Position numbers and translations under genes: made by a program. This document shows positions 54,749-63,572 of a stretch of DNA of 64,000 bases, one piece after another; within the stretch, counting starts at the first letter, position 1, and each line of letters begins with the position of its first letter. The notes under the pieces were generated by a model. It saw nothing but the letters and a program-made list of their open reading frames with translations. It ran no database searches and was not told where the DNA came from. The stretch spans positions 124,001-188,000 of the forward strand of contig JALNJX010000002.1 of the NCBI GenBank assembly GCA_023268255.1, written 5' to 3'. This stretch comes from Candidatus Wolframiiraptor sinensis. Lineage in GTDB: Archaea > Thermoproteota > Nitrososphaeria_A > Caldarchaeales > Wolframiiraptoraceae.

Positions 54749-57244
54749 ATGCCCCAGACGCGGCTCGACGAGCATATTCGCCACGACATCTACTTCCTGA
54801 TAGGGTGCAGTTATGATGGAAAGGCTGGGAAGGCCTATCTCAAGCTCCTGAACCCTGAGACTCAGGAGGTCAAGCTGGTATACGATGAGAGCGGGCATAA
54901 GCCCTACTGCTATGTCAAGGAGGCGATCGAGGAGGTTAAGGGGCTCGGGCTCCCCGGAGTCGTGGAGCTAACACGTGAAAGAAAGTATGATCTCCTGAGA
55001 GATCGGGAGGTTGAGTTGACGAAGATAATCGCAAGCGATCCACTGGCTATAGGCGGTAGCAGCAGCTCGATAAGGGAGAGGATAAAAGCCTGGGAGGCCG
55101 ATATACCATACCACCTCTGCTACCTCTATGATATGAAGCTCACGCCATGCATGCCATATATCCTCTCGGATAATAAGCTGAGCGAATATCTACCTAGCGA
55201 CGAGAGGATCAGGGAGATCGTGGAGAATGTCTTCGGCGACCTGCCGGATGAGGAGAAAAGGCTTCTAGCAGAGTGGATAAGCCTCTTCGAGGCCGATCAG
55301 CCGGCATTCAAGCACCTCTCGATGGATATAGAGGTCTTGTCGCCGGTCGCGACCAGAGTTCCGTCGCCGAGCAAGGCTCGAGATAAGGTCGGGACAATAG
55401 CCTTCATCGGAAGCGATGGTAGGAGGGAGGTCTACCTGCTCAGAACGCCGAAGCTGGGAGACATCTCGAGCACGAGCATCTACGAGGTCAAGGTATATGA
55501 TGATGAGGCCAAGATGCTCAAGGATGCCTTTGAGGTCATCCAGCAATACCCAATACTAGCGACATTCAACGGCGACGACTTTGATCTACCATATCTCAGG
55601 CATAGGGCCGAGGCCCTGAAGATCCCAAAGGAGCAGATCCCGATAGTCCTTGGGAAGGAGGGCGCATCGCTGAGACACGGGATACATATAGATCTCTACA
55701 AGTTCTTCATGAATAGGAGCATACAAGTTTATGCCTTCGACAACAAGTATAGGGAGCACACTCTCGAGGCTATAGCCCATGCGATACTGGGTAAGGGTAA
55801 GATCGCGCTGGAGAAGCCGATCGGGGAGCTGAGTGGAGAGGAGCTGGCGAGATACTGCTTCCAAGACGCTCTCCTCGTCCATGAGCTCCTCACGATGGAT
55901 AACGAGCTAATTCTCAAGCTCCTAGTCGTCCTCTCGAGGATAAGCAGGATGCCGATGGAGGACGTATGCAGGCATGGTGTATCGGGGTGGATCAAGAGCC
56001 TCCTCTACTTCGAGCATAGGAGGAGGGGGTATCTGATACCGAGACATGATGAGCTCCTCGAGGAGAAGGGAGTAATCTCGACGAAGGCGATCATTGAGGG
56101 GAAGAAGTATAGGGGCGCGATAGTCGTCGAACCCGTCCCCGGAGTGCACTTTGACGTAACGGTCCTAGACTTCTCATCCCTTTATCCATCGGTTTTAAAG
56201 GAGTGGAATCTCAGCTATGAGACCGCTAGATGCCCGCACCCGGGGTGCAGAGATAACGTCGTCCCGGAGACCAGCCACTGGATATGCAGGGAGAGAAGGG
56301 GGATTCAGAGCGAGGTGATAGGATGCCTCAGAGACATAAGGGTTAGATGGTATAAACCGAAGAGCTCGGATAAAAGCCTCCCCGAGAGCCAGCGAAGATG
56401 GTATGGCGTCGTCCAGAGAGCTCTCAAGGTCTTCCTAAACGCGGCTTACGGCGTCTTCGGATTCGAGGAGTTCCCGCTTTACTGCCCGCCCGTTGCCGAG
56501 AGCACGGCGGCGATAGCGAGATACGCGTTCAGGAGAACGGTCGAGAAGGCGACGGAGCTGGGGATCCAAGTGCTATACGGCGACACGGACAGCCTCTTCA
56601 TAAAGACCGATAATGAGGAGCTGATAAACGAGCTAGTCTCATGGGTCAAAAAGGAAATGAAGCTCGACTTGGAGCTCGACAAGAAGTACAGGTACGTGGT
56701 CTTCTCGCAGAGGAAGAAGAATTATCTAGGCGTCACCGATAAGGGGGTCGTCGATGTCAAGGGGCTCACGGGAAAGAAAGCCCACATCCCCAAGTTCATA
56801 AAAGATTCTTTCGAGGAGATGCTGGAGATACTCAGGGGGGTCAGGAACGAGGAGGAGTTCGAGCGCGCGAAGAGGAGGATCGAGGAGCTGGTTCGAGCCA
56901 AGTATCAGGCCCTTAAGAAGGGGGAATACAACTTGGAGGACTTATCCTTTCAGGTCATGCTTTCTAAGAGCGTGGACAGGTATGTGAAGACGACCCCGCC
57001 CCACGTCAAGGCTGCCAGAAAGCTCATCAGCCGAGGAATATCTATTGTTCCCGGAGATATAATAGCCTACGTCAAGACCAAGGATAGCGATGGCGTGGAG
57101 CCCCTAGAATTCGCTAGAAAAGATCAAGTGGATGTCGATAAGTACGTCGAATACCTCCTATCAACGTTCGAGCAGGTCTTGGACGCGCTTGGAATAGACG
57201 TGAACAAGATAACGGGCATGACGAGCCTGGAATACTTCATCTAG
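54749..57244 (+). CDS. polB: family-B DNA polymerase with intact proofreading motifs
   Basis: The protein has 831 residues. Exonuclease motifs are intact: Exo I D193-I-E195 (SMDIEV), Exo II NGDDFDLPYL, Exo III YCFQD. Polymerase motifs A (LDFSSLYPS), B (KVFLNAAYG) and C (YGDTDSLF) are complete. The C-terminus (MTSLEYFI) resembles a PCNA-binding PIP end. It resembles the crenarchaeal PolB1 replicase, slightly shorter than the Sulfolobus enzyme. A second PolB follows 2.2 kb downstream on the same strand. Confidence 0.93.
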   Translation: MPQTRLDEHIRHDIYFLIGCSYDGKAGKAYLKLLNPETQEVKLVYDESGHKPYCYVKEAIEEVKGLGLPGVVELTRERKYDLLRDREVELTKIIASDPLAIGGSSSSIRERIKAWEADIPYHLCYLYDMKLTPCMPYILSDNKLSEYLPSDERIREIVENVFGDLPDEEKRLLAEWISLFEADQPAFKHLSMDIEVLSPVATRVPSPSKARDKVGTIAFIGSDGRREVYLLRTPKLGDISSTSIYEVKVYDDEAKMLKDAFEVIQQYPILATFNGDDFDLPYLRHRAEALKIPKEQIPIVLGKEGASLRHGIHIDLYKFFMNRSIQVYAFDNKYREHTLEAIAHAILGKGKIALEKPIGELSGEELARYCFQDALLVHELLTMDNELILKLLVVLSRISRMPMEDVCRHGVSGWIKSLLYFEHRRRGYLIPRHDELLEEKGVISTKAIIEGKKYRGAIVVEPVPGVHFDVTVLDFSSLYPSVLKEWNLSYETARCPHPGCRDNVVPETSHWICRERRGIQSEVIGCLRDIRVRWYKPKSSDKSLPESQRRWYGVVQRALKVFLNAAYGVFGFEEFPLYCPPVAESTAAIARYAFRRTVEKATELGIQVLYGDTDSLFIKTDNEELINELVSWVKKEMKLDLELDKKYRYVVFSQRKKNYLGVTDKGVVDVKGLTGKKAHIPKFIKDSFEEMLEILRGVRNEEEFERAKRRIEELVRAKYQALKKGEYNLEDLSFQVMLSKSVDRYVKTTPPHVKAARKLISRGISIVPGDIIAYVKTKDSDGVEPLEFARKDQVDVDKYVEYLLSTFEQVLDALGIDVNKITGMTSLEYFI

Positions 57245-59095: not shown

Positions 59096-59341
59096 ATGCT
59101 GTTTCTGGATAACAAGCCTCAGATGTCTCTGAGGAGGAGCTACGCCAATGGCTACAAGTACTGCTCTAGGTGCAGGATATACTATCTCACGGATAGCGTC
59201 AGGTGCCCGTACTGCGGGATTCTGCTGAGGAACTCGCCTAGGAAGAAGAAATCCTTGAAGAACGCCAAAGTCGTCAAAGTTCCGAATCAGCTTCTGAAGG
59301 AAGCTGAGAAGATCGAGATAGAGGTAAAGACCAAGGCTTAA
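59096..59341 (+). CDS. small zinc-ribbon protein
   Basis: The protein has 81 residues. One zinc ribbon is clear: YCSRCRIYYL and RCPYCGILLR, followed by a Lys/Arg-rich stretch and an acidic/basic tail. It could bind nucleic acid or act as a subunit of a larger complex. It sits 151 bases upstream of the second PolB on the same strand. Not recognised beyond the fold. Confidence 0.7.
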   Translation: MLFLDNKPQMSLRRSYANGYKYCSRCRIYYLTDSVRCPYCGILLRNSPRKKKSLKNAKVVKVPNQLLKEAEKIEIEVKTKA

Positions 59342-59492: not shown

Positions 59493-61760
59493 ATGAGGCT
59501 CTGGCTACTCGACCTAGCATCAGAGCAGGATGGAGGGCCCGTGATAGCGCTCTGGATGAAGGCGGGCGACGGATCTACCTGGCTGGCTAGAGTGAGGTAT
59601 ACTCCAAGCTTCTATCTTGTCGGGAATCTGGATGGGGCTGCTGAGTTATTAAGGGCTGAGGGCCTCAGGTTTGAGAGGTGCTCTCGGAGGGTTCGCGGAA
59701 AACCTGTTGAGGCTCTAAGGGTCTACGTGGACAGGGAGGATCTGGAGGATTATGCTGGGAGGCTTTTGAGGAGGATGCCGGCGCTGGAGGCCTATGAGGA
59801 TGATGTCCGAATCACCGTCAAGTATTTGATGGATGTGGGTCTGAGGCCGTGCTCTTGGCTCGAGGTCGATGGCTTGGACGTGGGCGCCGAGGATGGCGTC
59901 CGGGTTCTCGAGTGCTGCGAGGTCAGGGAGGCGGATGAGGCTCCGCCGCCGGCGCTCAAGGTCGTGTCCATGGATATGGTGGTCTTCGGCGAGAAGGGTT
60001 CTCCGAGGGCTGAGCGGGATCCCATTCGGCTGATAACCCTTTGCTTCGATGATGGGAGGATTATCCAGCTCGAGGGCGATGAGGCCGAGATCATTAGATC
60101 CTTCATCTCGACTGTGCGCGAGGCCGATCCAGATATCATCGTCGGCTTCGGCTCGAATAGATTTCAGTGGAGCTATCTCGCGGAGAGGGCTAAGAGGATT
60201 GGTGTTAGGATGGCTGTTGGCAGGCTGGGAGCCGAGCCCAGGATGAGCGTGCACGGCCACGTCTCGATACGCGGGAGGCTCAACATAGACCTCGAGGACA
60301 TGGCCAGGGATATACCGGAGCTCACCGTGGAAACGCTAGAGGAGTTCGTGAGATATCTCGGCATAGACGCGAGGCTGGATACGATAGAAGAATATGAGCT
60401 CGGCGATCTCTGGAGGGAGGACAGGCGGCGGGTTAAGAATTACTCGGCTCAGAGGTCTGAGGCGATTCTCAGGGCATTCGACGCCATCAGGGAGTTCATC
60501 TTCAGCCTGAGCGAGCTGACCGGCATGCCCGCCGACTATGTTCTGACGGCCTCCGCCGGCTTCAGGGTTGAGAGCTACTTGATGAGGCTGGCCCCCCGAG
60601 CTGGCGAGCTCATCCCGAGGAGAACCGAGATCGCGCACGTGAGTTATCCCGGCGGCCTCGTGAAGGAGCCTATAAGAGGCATGCACGAGGACGTCGCGGT
60701 CCTAGACTTCAGGTCGATGTACCCGAGCCTGATAATCAAGTATAACATCTCATTCGACACGCTGAGCGATGATGGTGAGAATATTGCGCCTAGCGGCCAC
60801 AGGTTTAGGGCAAGACCCGAGGGCTTCCTCCCGATGGCCCTGAAGACGCTGCTCGAGGAGCGCAGGAAGATTCAGGAAAGGCTGAAGGCGGCGCCACATG
60901 GAAGCGTTGAGGCCAGGATTCTAGACGCGAGGCAGAGGGCGATCAAGATCATCGCGAACGCCGTCTATGGTTATACGGGCTGGTCGGGCGCGAGGTGGTA
61001 CTCTAGGGAGGTTGCGGAGGCGACTACGGCCTGGGGCAGGGATGTGATCGCCTCCACGATGAGAAAGGCCGAAGAGCTTGGGATGAAAGTGATCTACTCG
61101 GACACGGACTCCGTCTTCCTCAAGAACTACCATGGAAAGCTGGAGAAGCTGGTTGAGTGGATCGAGGTGGAGCTCGGCCTCGAGGCGAAGCTGGAGAAGA
61201 TCTTCAAGAGGATAATCTTCACGGAGGCGAAGAAGAGGTATGCCGGCATAACCGCTGATGGAGGGATAGAGGTCGCCGGGCTGGAGACCGTAAGAGGAGA
61301 CTGGAGCGGGATAGCGAGAGAAGCCCAATACGAGACGGTTAAGGCCTTGCTCGAGACTGGAGATCCAGCTCAAGCCCTTAAGAAGGCCAGAGAATACGTC
61401 CAGGCGCTTAGAAATCACCAAGTCGACTTGAGGAAGCTCATAATCTGGAAGCAGATAACTAGGCCGCTCAGCGAGTACTCCGCGACCCAGCCCCACATAG
61501 TCGTCGCCAAGCAGCTCATGAGCGAGGGATGGAGGATTCAACCCGGAGACAAGGTAGGGTTCATCGTGACCGCCGGCTCCGGCCCTCTATACTCCAGAGC
61601 AAAACCCTACTTCAAGGTCTCAAGAGATGAGGTTGACTGGGAGTATTATGTGGAGAAGCAGGTTGTGGCGGCGTGTGGTAGAATCCTCGAGGCCGTTGGA
61701 ATAAGTGCAGAGAAGATTCTGGAGTCCAGCGAGAGAACGCTAATAGACTTCTTCGGCTAA
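59493..61760 (+). CDS. polB: family-B DNA polymerase with degenerate exonuclease motifs
   Basis: The protein has 755 residues. Polymerase motifs A (LDFRSMYPS), B (KIIANAVYG) and C (YSDTDSVF) are complete, so synthesis should work. The proofreading site is not: Exo I reads D161-M-V163 where D-x-E is expected, Exo II has F224-Q225 instead of F-D, and Exo III has Y317-x3-R321 in place of Y-x3-D. Three of four catalytic carboxylates are gone. The C-terminus ERTLIDFFG is an excellent PIP-like PCNA-binding end. By size it is nearest PolB3-type crenarchaeal enzymes. Confidence 0.92.
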   Translation: MRLWLLDLASEQDGGPVIALWMKAGDGSTWLARVRYTPSFYLVGNLDGAAELLRAEGLRFERCSRRVRGKPVEALRVYVDREDLEDYAGRLLRRMPALEAYEDDVRITVKYLMDVGLRPCSWLEVDGLDVGAEDGVRVLECCEVREADEAPPPALKVVSMDMVVFGEKGSPRAERDPIRLITLCFDDGRIIQLEGDEAEIIRSFISTVREADPDIIVGFGSNRFQWSYLAERAKRIGVRMAVGRLGAEPRMSVHGHVSIRGRLNIDLEDMARDIPELTVETLEEFVRYLGIDARLDTIEEYELGDLWREDRRRVKNYSAQRSEAILRAFDAIREFIFSLSELTGMPADYVLTASAGFRVESYLMRLAPRAGELIPRRTEIAHVSYPGGLVKEPIRGMHEDVAVLDFRSMYPSLIIKYNISFDTLSDDGENIAPSGHRFRARPEGFLPMALKTLLEERRKIQERLKAAPHGSVEARILDARQRAIKIIANAVYGYTGWSGARWYSREVAEATTAWGRDVIASTMRKAEELGMKVIYSDTDSVFLKNYHGKLEKLVEWIEVELGLEAKLEKIFKRIIFTEAKKRYAGITADGGIEVAGLETVRGDWSGIAREAQYETVKALLETGDPAQALKKAREYVQALRNHQVDLRKLIIWKQITRPLSEYSATQPHIVVAKQLMSEGWRIQPGDKVGFIVTAGSGPLYSRAKPYFKVSRDEVDWEYYVEKQVVAACGRILEAVGISAEKILESSERTLIDFFG

Positions 61761-62387: not shown

Positions 62388-63572
62388 ATGATGAACCTGG
62401 AGTATAGGGAGGCGTTGGGACGGGTTTCCTCGCTACTTAAAGAGTTCCGCGAGGCTCTCCTGATCTTTCACGATGATGCCGATGGCCTTTGCGCCGGAGC
62501 AATCCTCTCCCTCCTCTTGGATAGAGTTGGGATATCGCATAGGCTAATATGCGTCGAGAAGCTCTCTCCGGAGATCGTGAAGCTCATACATTCTCGAGGT
62601 GAAGGTCTCTATCTTTACGCGGATATAGGCTCGGGTAGGGCCGACCTGATAGCGCGGGCTCTCGAGAGGTTTGGGGGCGCGGCAATAATCCTAGATCACC
62701 ACGACCCGGTTGAGGCGGAGCATCCGAGGCTCCTTCACCTGAACCCCGAGCTGTATGGATATGAGGGCGAGAGCGATGTTAGTGGATCAACCGCCGCCTA
62801 CCTCTTGGTTAGAGAGGTGCTGGGCGCGCGGGATGCAGCCTGGATGGCCGTGATCGGGTCGGCTGAGATCCCCGGAGAATTGAGGAAGCTGAATAGAATT
62901 GCGCTGGAGGACGCCGTGAGCTCTGGAGACGTGGAGGTAGTCGGCGAGGGCAGTGGAGAGAGCTATCAGGTGAAGTTTCTAGGGAAGTCCTGGAAGGAGC
63001 TCTCCTCAACGCTCTCTGCGATCGGGAGCGTGGGATATTATATGCGGGGGCCGCAGGAGGCTGTGAGACACCTTAAGAATAGGATGATCCCGGAGAGCTT
63101 GGCGGCCAAGTTCGAGGATCTGAGGAGGAGGAAGTTCGCTCAAGCCTTCGCCCTCATCGCTAAGACCGGAATGCGGAGGAGCAGATGGGCTCAGTGGTAT
63201 CATCTCGGAGACCTTTTCAAGGGCTTGGGATCAAAGACCATCGGAACATTAACCTCGATGCTCAGCTACAGGAAGAACATCGATCCAGACCGCTACATCA
63301 TAGGCTTCATGAACTTCGAGCCGGAGATCCCGGAGCTCGGGAGAATACATGGCAGCTGGATCAAGTTATCTATCAGGGCGCCGAGGAAGCTCGCGGGCCT
63401 AGTGGAGAGGGGCTCTATGCCGCCGATCTCCGATCTAGCGATAAAGGCTTCCGAGATGGTCGGCGGATCGGCTGATGGGCACAAGTTCGCCGCCTCAGGC
63501 CTCATACCCGCCGGAGCCGAGGATGAATTCATCCGGAGCTTTGACGGCCTCGTGGGCGAGTTTAAGACGTGA
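62388..63572 (+). CDS. DHH-family phosphoesterase (RecJ-like)
   Basis: The protein has 394 residues. Metal motifs are HDDADGLCAGAIL (motif I, about residues 28-40), ADIGSGRAD (motif II), LDHHDP (DHH motif III) and GSAEI (motif IV). A glycine-rich DHHA1-like end is SADGHKFAASGLIP. Archaeal DHH proteins include the GINS-associated nuclease and nano-RNases; which one this is cannot be settled from sequence alone. Neighbouring PolB genes are compatible with a DNA role. Confidence 0.88.
   Translation: MMNLEYREALGRVSSLLKEFREALLIFHDDADGLCAGAILSLLLDRVGISHRLICVEKLSPEIVKLIHSRGEGLYLYADIGSGRADLIARALERFGGAAIILDHHDPVEAEHPRLLHLNPELYGYEGESDVSGSTAAYLLVREVLGARDAAWMAVIGSAEIPGELRKLNRIALEDAVSSGDVEVVGEGSGESYQVKFLGKSWKELSSTLSAIGSVGYYMRGPQEAVRHLKNRMIPESLAAKFEDLRRRKFAQAFALIAKTGMRRSRWAQWYHLGDLFKGLGSKTIGTLTSMLSYRKNIDPDRYIIGFMNFEPEIPELGRIHGSWIKLSIRAPRKLAGLVERGSMPPISDLAIKASEMVGGSADGHKFAASGLIPAGAEDEFIRSFDGLVGEFKT

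Follow-up and report, generated by a model that had tools for sequence, protein, structure and literature searches.

An archaeal PolB3-type DNA polymerase with a dismantled proofreading site is one member of an extensive, seemingly undescribed PolB3 branch

The window, a stretch of 64,000 nucleotides from Candidatus Wolframiiraptor sinensis, carries two family-B DNA polymerase genes, one of which appeared at first sight to have lost the acidic residues needed for proofreading. Three questions follow: whether this is a functional polymerase or a local accident, which PolB subfamily it represents, and what such an enzyme could do in a cell with other replicative polymerases. The organism belongs to the Caldarchaeales, called Aigarchaeota in former naming.

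Pfam models recognised a family-B polymerase domain and, with a weaker score, an exonuclease domain in the open reading frame (Table 1). The best solved relative of its product (P0001) was the Pyrobaculum calidifontis PolB3 (5mdn; E=1.4e-166, full-length alignment), which scored 559 bits in the PDB search vs 140 bits for the PolB1 structure 1s5j; the nearest named record was that of Ca. W. allenii (87% protein identity). The sequence-only reading had claimed the changes E163V, D225Q and D321R, and all three were exact, because the alignment with P. calidifontis PolB3 reads D161-M-V163, F-Q225 and Y317-x3-R321. One of the four exonuclease carboxylates (D161) is thus left in P0001, whereas 5mdn has all four. 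Motifs A (LDFRSMYPS), B (KIIANAVYG) and C (SDTDS), as well as the TEAKKRYAG segment, agree with active enzymes, and the polymerase motifs and PIP-like end were found intact, as had been proposed. Support for a loss of proofreading alongside a retained polymerase is strong. The tail (ERTLIDFF) is PIP-like by its sequence and lies in a low-confidence part of the structural model; similar tails are found in most exo-dead and exo-intact PolB3 proteins.

Table 1. Positions of the genes and motifs discussed (numbering of the window)
Feature	Positions	Strand	Remarks
PolB1	54749..57244	+	exonuclease intact: DIE / FNGDDFD / YCFQD; not part of the feature
Zn-ribbon gene	59096-59341		81 aa
Exo-dead PolB3-type DNA polymerase	59493..61760	+	755 aa; reading frame open
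Exo I VVSMDMVVFGE	59961..59993	+	D161 present, E163 -> V (S-M-D161-M-V163)
Exo II IVGFGSNRFQWSYL	60138..60179	+	D225 -> Q (N-R-F-Q225-W); motif Asn -> G220
Exo III VKNYSAQRSEAIL	60432..60470	+	Y317 present, D321 -> R (Y317-S-A-Q-R321)
Motif A VLDFRSMYPS	60699..60728	+	catalytic D405, steric-gate Y410; intact
Motif B RQRAIKIIANAVYG	60930..60971	+	intact (KIIANAVYG)
Motif C YSDTD	61095..61109	+	both catalytic Asp there
PIP-like C-terminal tail ERTLIDFFG	61731..61757	+	PIP-like by sequence
DHH-family (RecJ/GAN-like) nuclease gene	62388..63572	+	recurrent polB3 neighbour, both exo states

The exonuclease site could in principle have been rebuilt from relocated acids. The alignment argues against this: no other acid at the motif columns appears to replace the missing carboxylates, and the clade-specific acids E268, E280 and E300 fall outside the motifs. 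The AlphaFold model of P0001 had a mean pLDDT of 82, its exonuclease domain was mostly at 80-96 with a dip near residues 271-280, the exonuclease fold was complete, and the best Foldseek match in the PDB was again 5mdn (TM 0.79). In 16 pairs of exo-dead proteins dN/dS was 0.04-0.13 in the polymerase domain and 0.05-0.23 in the exonuclease domain, therefore the entire protein is held under selection. The low dN/dS of the exonuclease domain, its pLDDT values and the match of the model to 5mdn indicate that the fold of this domain was kept; its chemistry is lost.

An assembly error was ruled out, because exo-dead orthologs are also present in another 13 genomes of the window's family. In fact, every ortholog in this family has dead exonuclease motifs, and in two members (L014 and L017) even D161 is replaced, by Asn. 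Using the four carboxylate columns, we scored the exonuclease state of PolB3 proteins throughout the phylum, in a cleaned set of 118 proteins that included the 5mdn reference and from which two divergent rows of family f3, the degenerate Sulfolobaceae-like rows of f21 and fragments were left out. In this set 64 of the 118 proteins were exo-dead and 54 had all four carboxylates; among the exo-dead proteins one carboxylate was left in 48, none in 15 and two in a single case, and the residues at these four positions differ freely from one protein to the next. The feature is therefore not confined to the local PolB pair to which the sequence-only reading had tied it; PolB3 exonuclease loss is phylum-wide. 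Twelve polymerase-site columns were invariant in all 118 rows, exo-dead and exo-intact alike: the Asp and Tyr of motif A, the Lys, Asn, Tyr and Gly of motif B, the Asp, Thr and Asp of motif C, and further a Lys and the Tyr of KKxY and the Tyr of Y-GG. The idea that the gene is decaying, or that P0001 has a structural or regulatory part without catalysis, is hardly tenable: the single point in its favour is that one of the two active sites is dead, and against it stand the invariance of the polymerase catalytic residues in the 64 orthologs and the low dN/dS of the polymerase domain.

An exonuclease-inactive archaeal PolB brings PolB2 to mind (Dpo2, encoded with PPB2 and iRadA), a translesion extender polymerase (PMC8764526). 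In PolB2, motif C is as a rule altered (GIVDS in the PolB2 of this genome) and the exonuclease domain decayed, whereas P0001 has the canonical DTD, a complete exonuclease fold and a PIP-like tail. In a tree of polymerase domains PolB1 and PolB2 stood apart, and the exo-dead and exo-intact PolB3 proteins of the phylum grouped together with a support of 95. P0001 is thus a PolB3 ortholog and not a PolB2; the latter identity is excluded by the tree, by the canonical motif C and by the presence of a separate PolB2 gene (718 aa) in the genome, preceded by a 91-aa ORF. No family model matches this ORF, which we call PPB2-like from its size and position only. PPB2 and iRadA were not found at the P0001 locus, where the neighbours are DUF2148, DHH, MBL and PhoU/AbrB genes. 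The comparison with the PolB1, PolB2 and PolB3 families suggested earlier thus places P0001 with PolB3, with the exonuclease columns lost. P0001 resembles the crenarchaeal enzymes (P. calidifontis 5mdn; Sulfolobus Dpo3) in sequence and fold, subfamily, dnaG or DHH neighbourhood, PIP-like tail and canonical motifs A, B and C with the two Asp of motif C. It differs from them in the exonuclease site, which is typical of characterised PolB3 enzymes without being clade-defining, and in which three of the four carboxylates are replaced.

Gene order points to the same locus being inherited in both exonuclease states. Crenarchaeal polB3 sits beside a convergent dnaG (PMC4104785). In the phylum, dnaG (NCBIfam equivalog) adjoins polB3, mostly convergently, in 10 families with exo-dead and 9 with exo-intact PolB3. 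The window's family has a DHH gene as neighbour instead of dnaG; the product of this gene has HDDADG and DHH motifs and scores under the RecJ and GAN cut-offs. Such a gene lies beside polB3 in five exo-dead groups (at most 3 kb away in f1, L046/L047/L049, f19, f27 and f65) and in three exo-intact groups (f33, f43 and f47). This proximity is what speaks for an arrangement in which the nuclease cleans 3' ends in trans, so that the pair would still edit; we consider it very improbable, as the same neighbour accompanies exo-intact PolB3 and is not beside most of the exo-dead ones.

Other suggested partners of P0001 fared differently. The genome encodes three PolBs (PolB1, the exo-dead PolB3 and PolB2). 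The neighbouring PolB1 does retain its exonuclease motifs, as had been stated, and in this respect the idea of a proofreading replicase as partner stood; the adjacency itself did not, since polB1 and polB3 are close to each other in L037, L038, L048 and the window but not in L034, which belongs to the same genus. A conserved polB1-polB3 pairing was therefore rejected, being present in part of the family only. The Zn-ribbon gene upstream, also proposed as a partner, was seen in the greater part of the order, also where genera or families have no PolB3, and its position in G001 and G003 is close to PolB1; therefore it is not a PolB3 partner but travels with PolB1.

The second potential source of accurate replication is PolD, which in this genome consists of DP2 and a DP1 with intact nuclease motifs (SDIH, GDIVD, GNHD, GHVH). 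The exo-dead form was found in 29 family groups (28 without the divergent f3), each with at least one PolD-bearing genome; exo-intact PolB3 occurred in 23 family groups, 20 of them without PolD, the exceptions being f33, f43 and f47. Counted by genomes, after correction with second DP2 and DP1 models and with the f3 and degenerate f21 rows included, 62 were exo-dead with PolD, 50 exo-intact without PolD, 7 exo-dead without PolD and 4 exo-intact with PolD. Of the seven exo-dead genomes without PolD, three belong to f21, a group of mixed state, since the decay of its PolB3 extends to the polymerase motifs; G280 is fragmented (86% complete) and has a PolD-bearing sister genome. With the profile models used, DP1 and DP2 were not found in G053 (98% complete), nor was either found in the incomplete G010 and G013, both from genus g4 within the window's family, where PolB1 may be the sole proofreading polymerase. 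Five further candidate exceptions (G382, G383, G007, G002 and G204) were dropped, as additional DP2 and DP1 models showed them to be PolD-bearing. In G382 the N-terminal DP2 model found no match and the catalytic model matched only 71 positions, and DP1 lies near the opposite end of the single contig; its DP2 may have been split, or may have diverged strongly.

A first tree suggested multiple independent losses of the exonuclease site, but placing the exo-dead rows in one clade, next to that of the exo-intact rows, fits equally well or better (AU p=0.599, the constrained tree being slightly better). One ancient loss fits the tree, together with a second one in f39, inside the exo-intact clade (G192, 9% contamination). 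Because a single ancient loss fits the tree, the association with PolD is mostly one historical contrast; PolD could not be upheld as a statistically independent correlate, since the sign test cannot reach significance with just 2-5 independent pairs. It is conceivable that selection on the exonuclease was simply relaxed once PolD replicated accurately, and that the protein performs ordinary PolB3 repair synthesis without any new specialised function. The co-occurrence of the exo-dead state with PolD, the several PolD-bearing lineages without any PolB3 and a slightly raised exonuclease dN relative to polymerase dN (median 1.45 vs 1.26, p about 0.05) are consistent with this. However, euryarchaea have PolD alongside an exo-active PolB3, and so do f33, f43 and f47, thus PolD alone does not make the exonuclease dispensable; as the tree favours one old loss, statistics do not decide the matter. 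We regard relaxed selection as quite unlikely. PolD permits exonuclease loss without forcing it, given that the euryarchaeal PolB3 (KOD) keeps a live exonuclease in PolD-bearing cells.

The reading to which we give slightly more than an even chance is that P0001 is an active polymerase, unable to proofread and tethered to PCNA, whose task is damage tolerance and gap filling, while PolD and PolB1 replicate accurately. We infer its polymerase activity, its use of PCNA and its role. The enzyme is probably recruited to PCNA through the PIP-like tail, which could bring it to stalled ends and gaps. A polymerase unable to remove the last nucleotide would tend to commit to imperfect ends and could extend primer ends from which a proofreading enzyme would remove nucleotides, whether at a lesion, a mismatch or a repair gap. 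High-fidelity copying would then fall to PolD, with its DP1 exonuclease, and to PolB1, and a non-proofreading PolB3 would be affordable because these two carry out accurate replication. Published work on related enzymes is compatible with such a role: the PolB of a PolD-bearing Thermococcus is reported to be dispensable and required for repair (PMC6759347), mutants of the S. islandicus PolB3 show sensitivity to 4-NQO (PMC8100216), and the exo-null PolB2 acts as an extender polymerase (PMC8764526).

The distribution of Y-family polymerases (PF00817, surveyed in relatives G000-G043) also fits damage tolerance: none was found in the 22 genomes of the window's family, vs 17 of the 20 genomes of the sister families f2 and f4, both of which are without PolB3. 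The complementarity is not general, since exo-dead PolB3 coexists with a Y-family polymerase in f5, f10 and f17, and genus g3 (G009, G012, G015, G017, G019 and G021; 95-98% complete) showed no PolB3, no PolB2 match and no Y-family polymerase. Among the polymerases surveyed genus g3 has PolB1 and PolD only, an unusually small set. An exclusive damage-tolerance role is opposed by the Y-family enzymes of f5, f10 and f17, by the presence of PolB2 in the same genome, with its PPB2-like neighbour, through which the translesion niche may already be occupied, and by the contribution of T. kodakarensis PolB to lagging-strand synthesis (PMC13136892). We put forward only tentatively, at somewhat less than an even chance, the wider view that an ancient major PolB3 branch, unrecognised until now, has abandoned proofreading for good and provides TACK archaea that rely on PolD with their general polymerase for damage tolerance, sometimes replacing Y-family enzymes, as in the Wolframiiraptor family.

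The lagging strand deserves attention in its own right. The protein could work like eukaryotic Pol alpha, a family-B polymerase with an inactivated exonuclease and no proofreading, in short primer extension or Okazaki maturation, its product being corrected or replaced by PolD or PolB1. Thermococcus PolB was mapped to the lagging strand and is better in strand displacement than PolD, and in that organism a PolB allele deficient in exonuclease, its steric gate intact, could be obtained readily (PMC13136892); the dnaG gene adjoining polB3 in many families is in line with this. On the other hand, that linkage is mostly convergent and common to exo-intact PolB3 too, the PIP-like tail suggests that the enzyme depends on PCNA and does not work bound to a primase, and PolB3 is missing in the related PolD-bearing f2, f4 and genus g3, which would be unusual for a core replication step. 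On balance we think a lagging-strand function unlikely, and prefer the damage-tolerance and gap-filling polymerase.

It is instructive to compare the exo-dead PolB3 with two more systems. Thermococcal PolB (KOD, Pfu) is likewise a PolB3 in a PolD-bearing cell, dispensable and with repair and lagging-strand roles, but its exonuclease site is intact (DIE / DNFD / YSMED in KOD). Eukaryotic Pol zeta is, like P0001, a family-B enzyme with an inactivated exonuclease (PMC7544198), an analogy of function only: Pol zeta and Pol alpha belong to another clade, are multi-subunit and have C-terminal metal-binding domains, which are absent in P0001.

In the literature searched the exo-dead archaeal PolB is PolB2, and PolB3 is proofreading or repair-capable (PMC4104785, PMC7544198, PMC11791011, PMC8764526). 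We found no description of an exo-dead PolB3 in the literature searched; subscription papers and supplements lay outside the search and an earlier remark is possible. This large branch is thus apparently undescribed. PolB3 figures in the same literature as a proofreading replicative or repair polymerase, yet about half of the sampled diversity of the phylum is without a proofreading site, which bears on models of which polymerase replicates and which repairs DNA in its uncultured PolD-bearing lineages. In annotation, these proteins pass as ordinary DNA polymerases. They are a natural example of proofreading being given up by one polymerase in the presence of another replicase that proofreads, and thermostable, naturally exo-minus family-B enzymes can be of practical use. 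The proposed function, if true, would add to PolB2 and Pol II one more way in which prokaryotes arrived at a translesion enzyme of family B.

Some sequences related to this branch depart from the common pattern. In f21 (L143, L145 and L147) exonuclease and polymerase motifs both degrade, unlike the loss restricted to the exonuclease described above. Two members of f3, in the same order (L030 and L031), have a very divergent PolB of 764-766 aa with the motif C YIDTDGIQF and dead exonuclease motifs, which falls outside the PolB3 group of the phylum, its very long branch lying close to the euryarchaeal sequence; Y-family polymerase (PF00817) was absent from both f3 genomes. Exo-dead PolB3-like proteins with intact polymerase motifs (30-32% identity) also occur in a separate phylum represented by four genomes (L050, L163-L166); in G409, the one genome of this phylum screened for it, no match to the PolD DP2 was found.

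Finally, at the positions that we take to be those of the euryarchaeal uracil pocket (I-P-F) in the N-terminal domain, the aligned residues are V-R-I in P0001 and I-R-Y in P. calidifontis PolB3. Since these differ from the euryarchaeal residues, template-uracil sensing may be altered across the whole branch.
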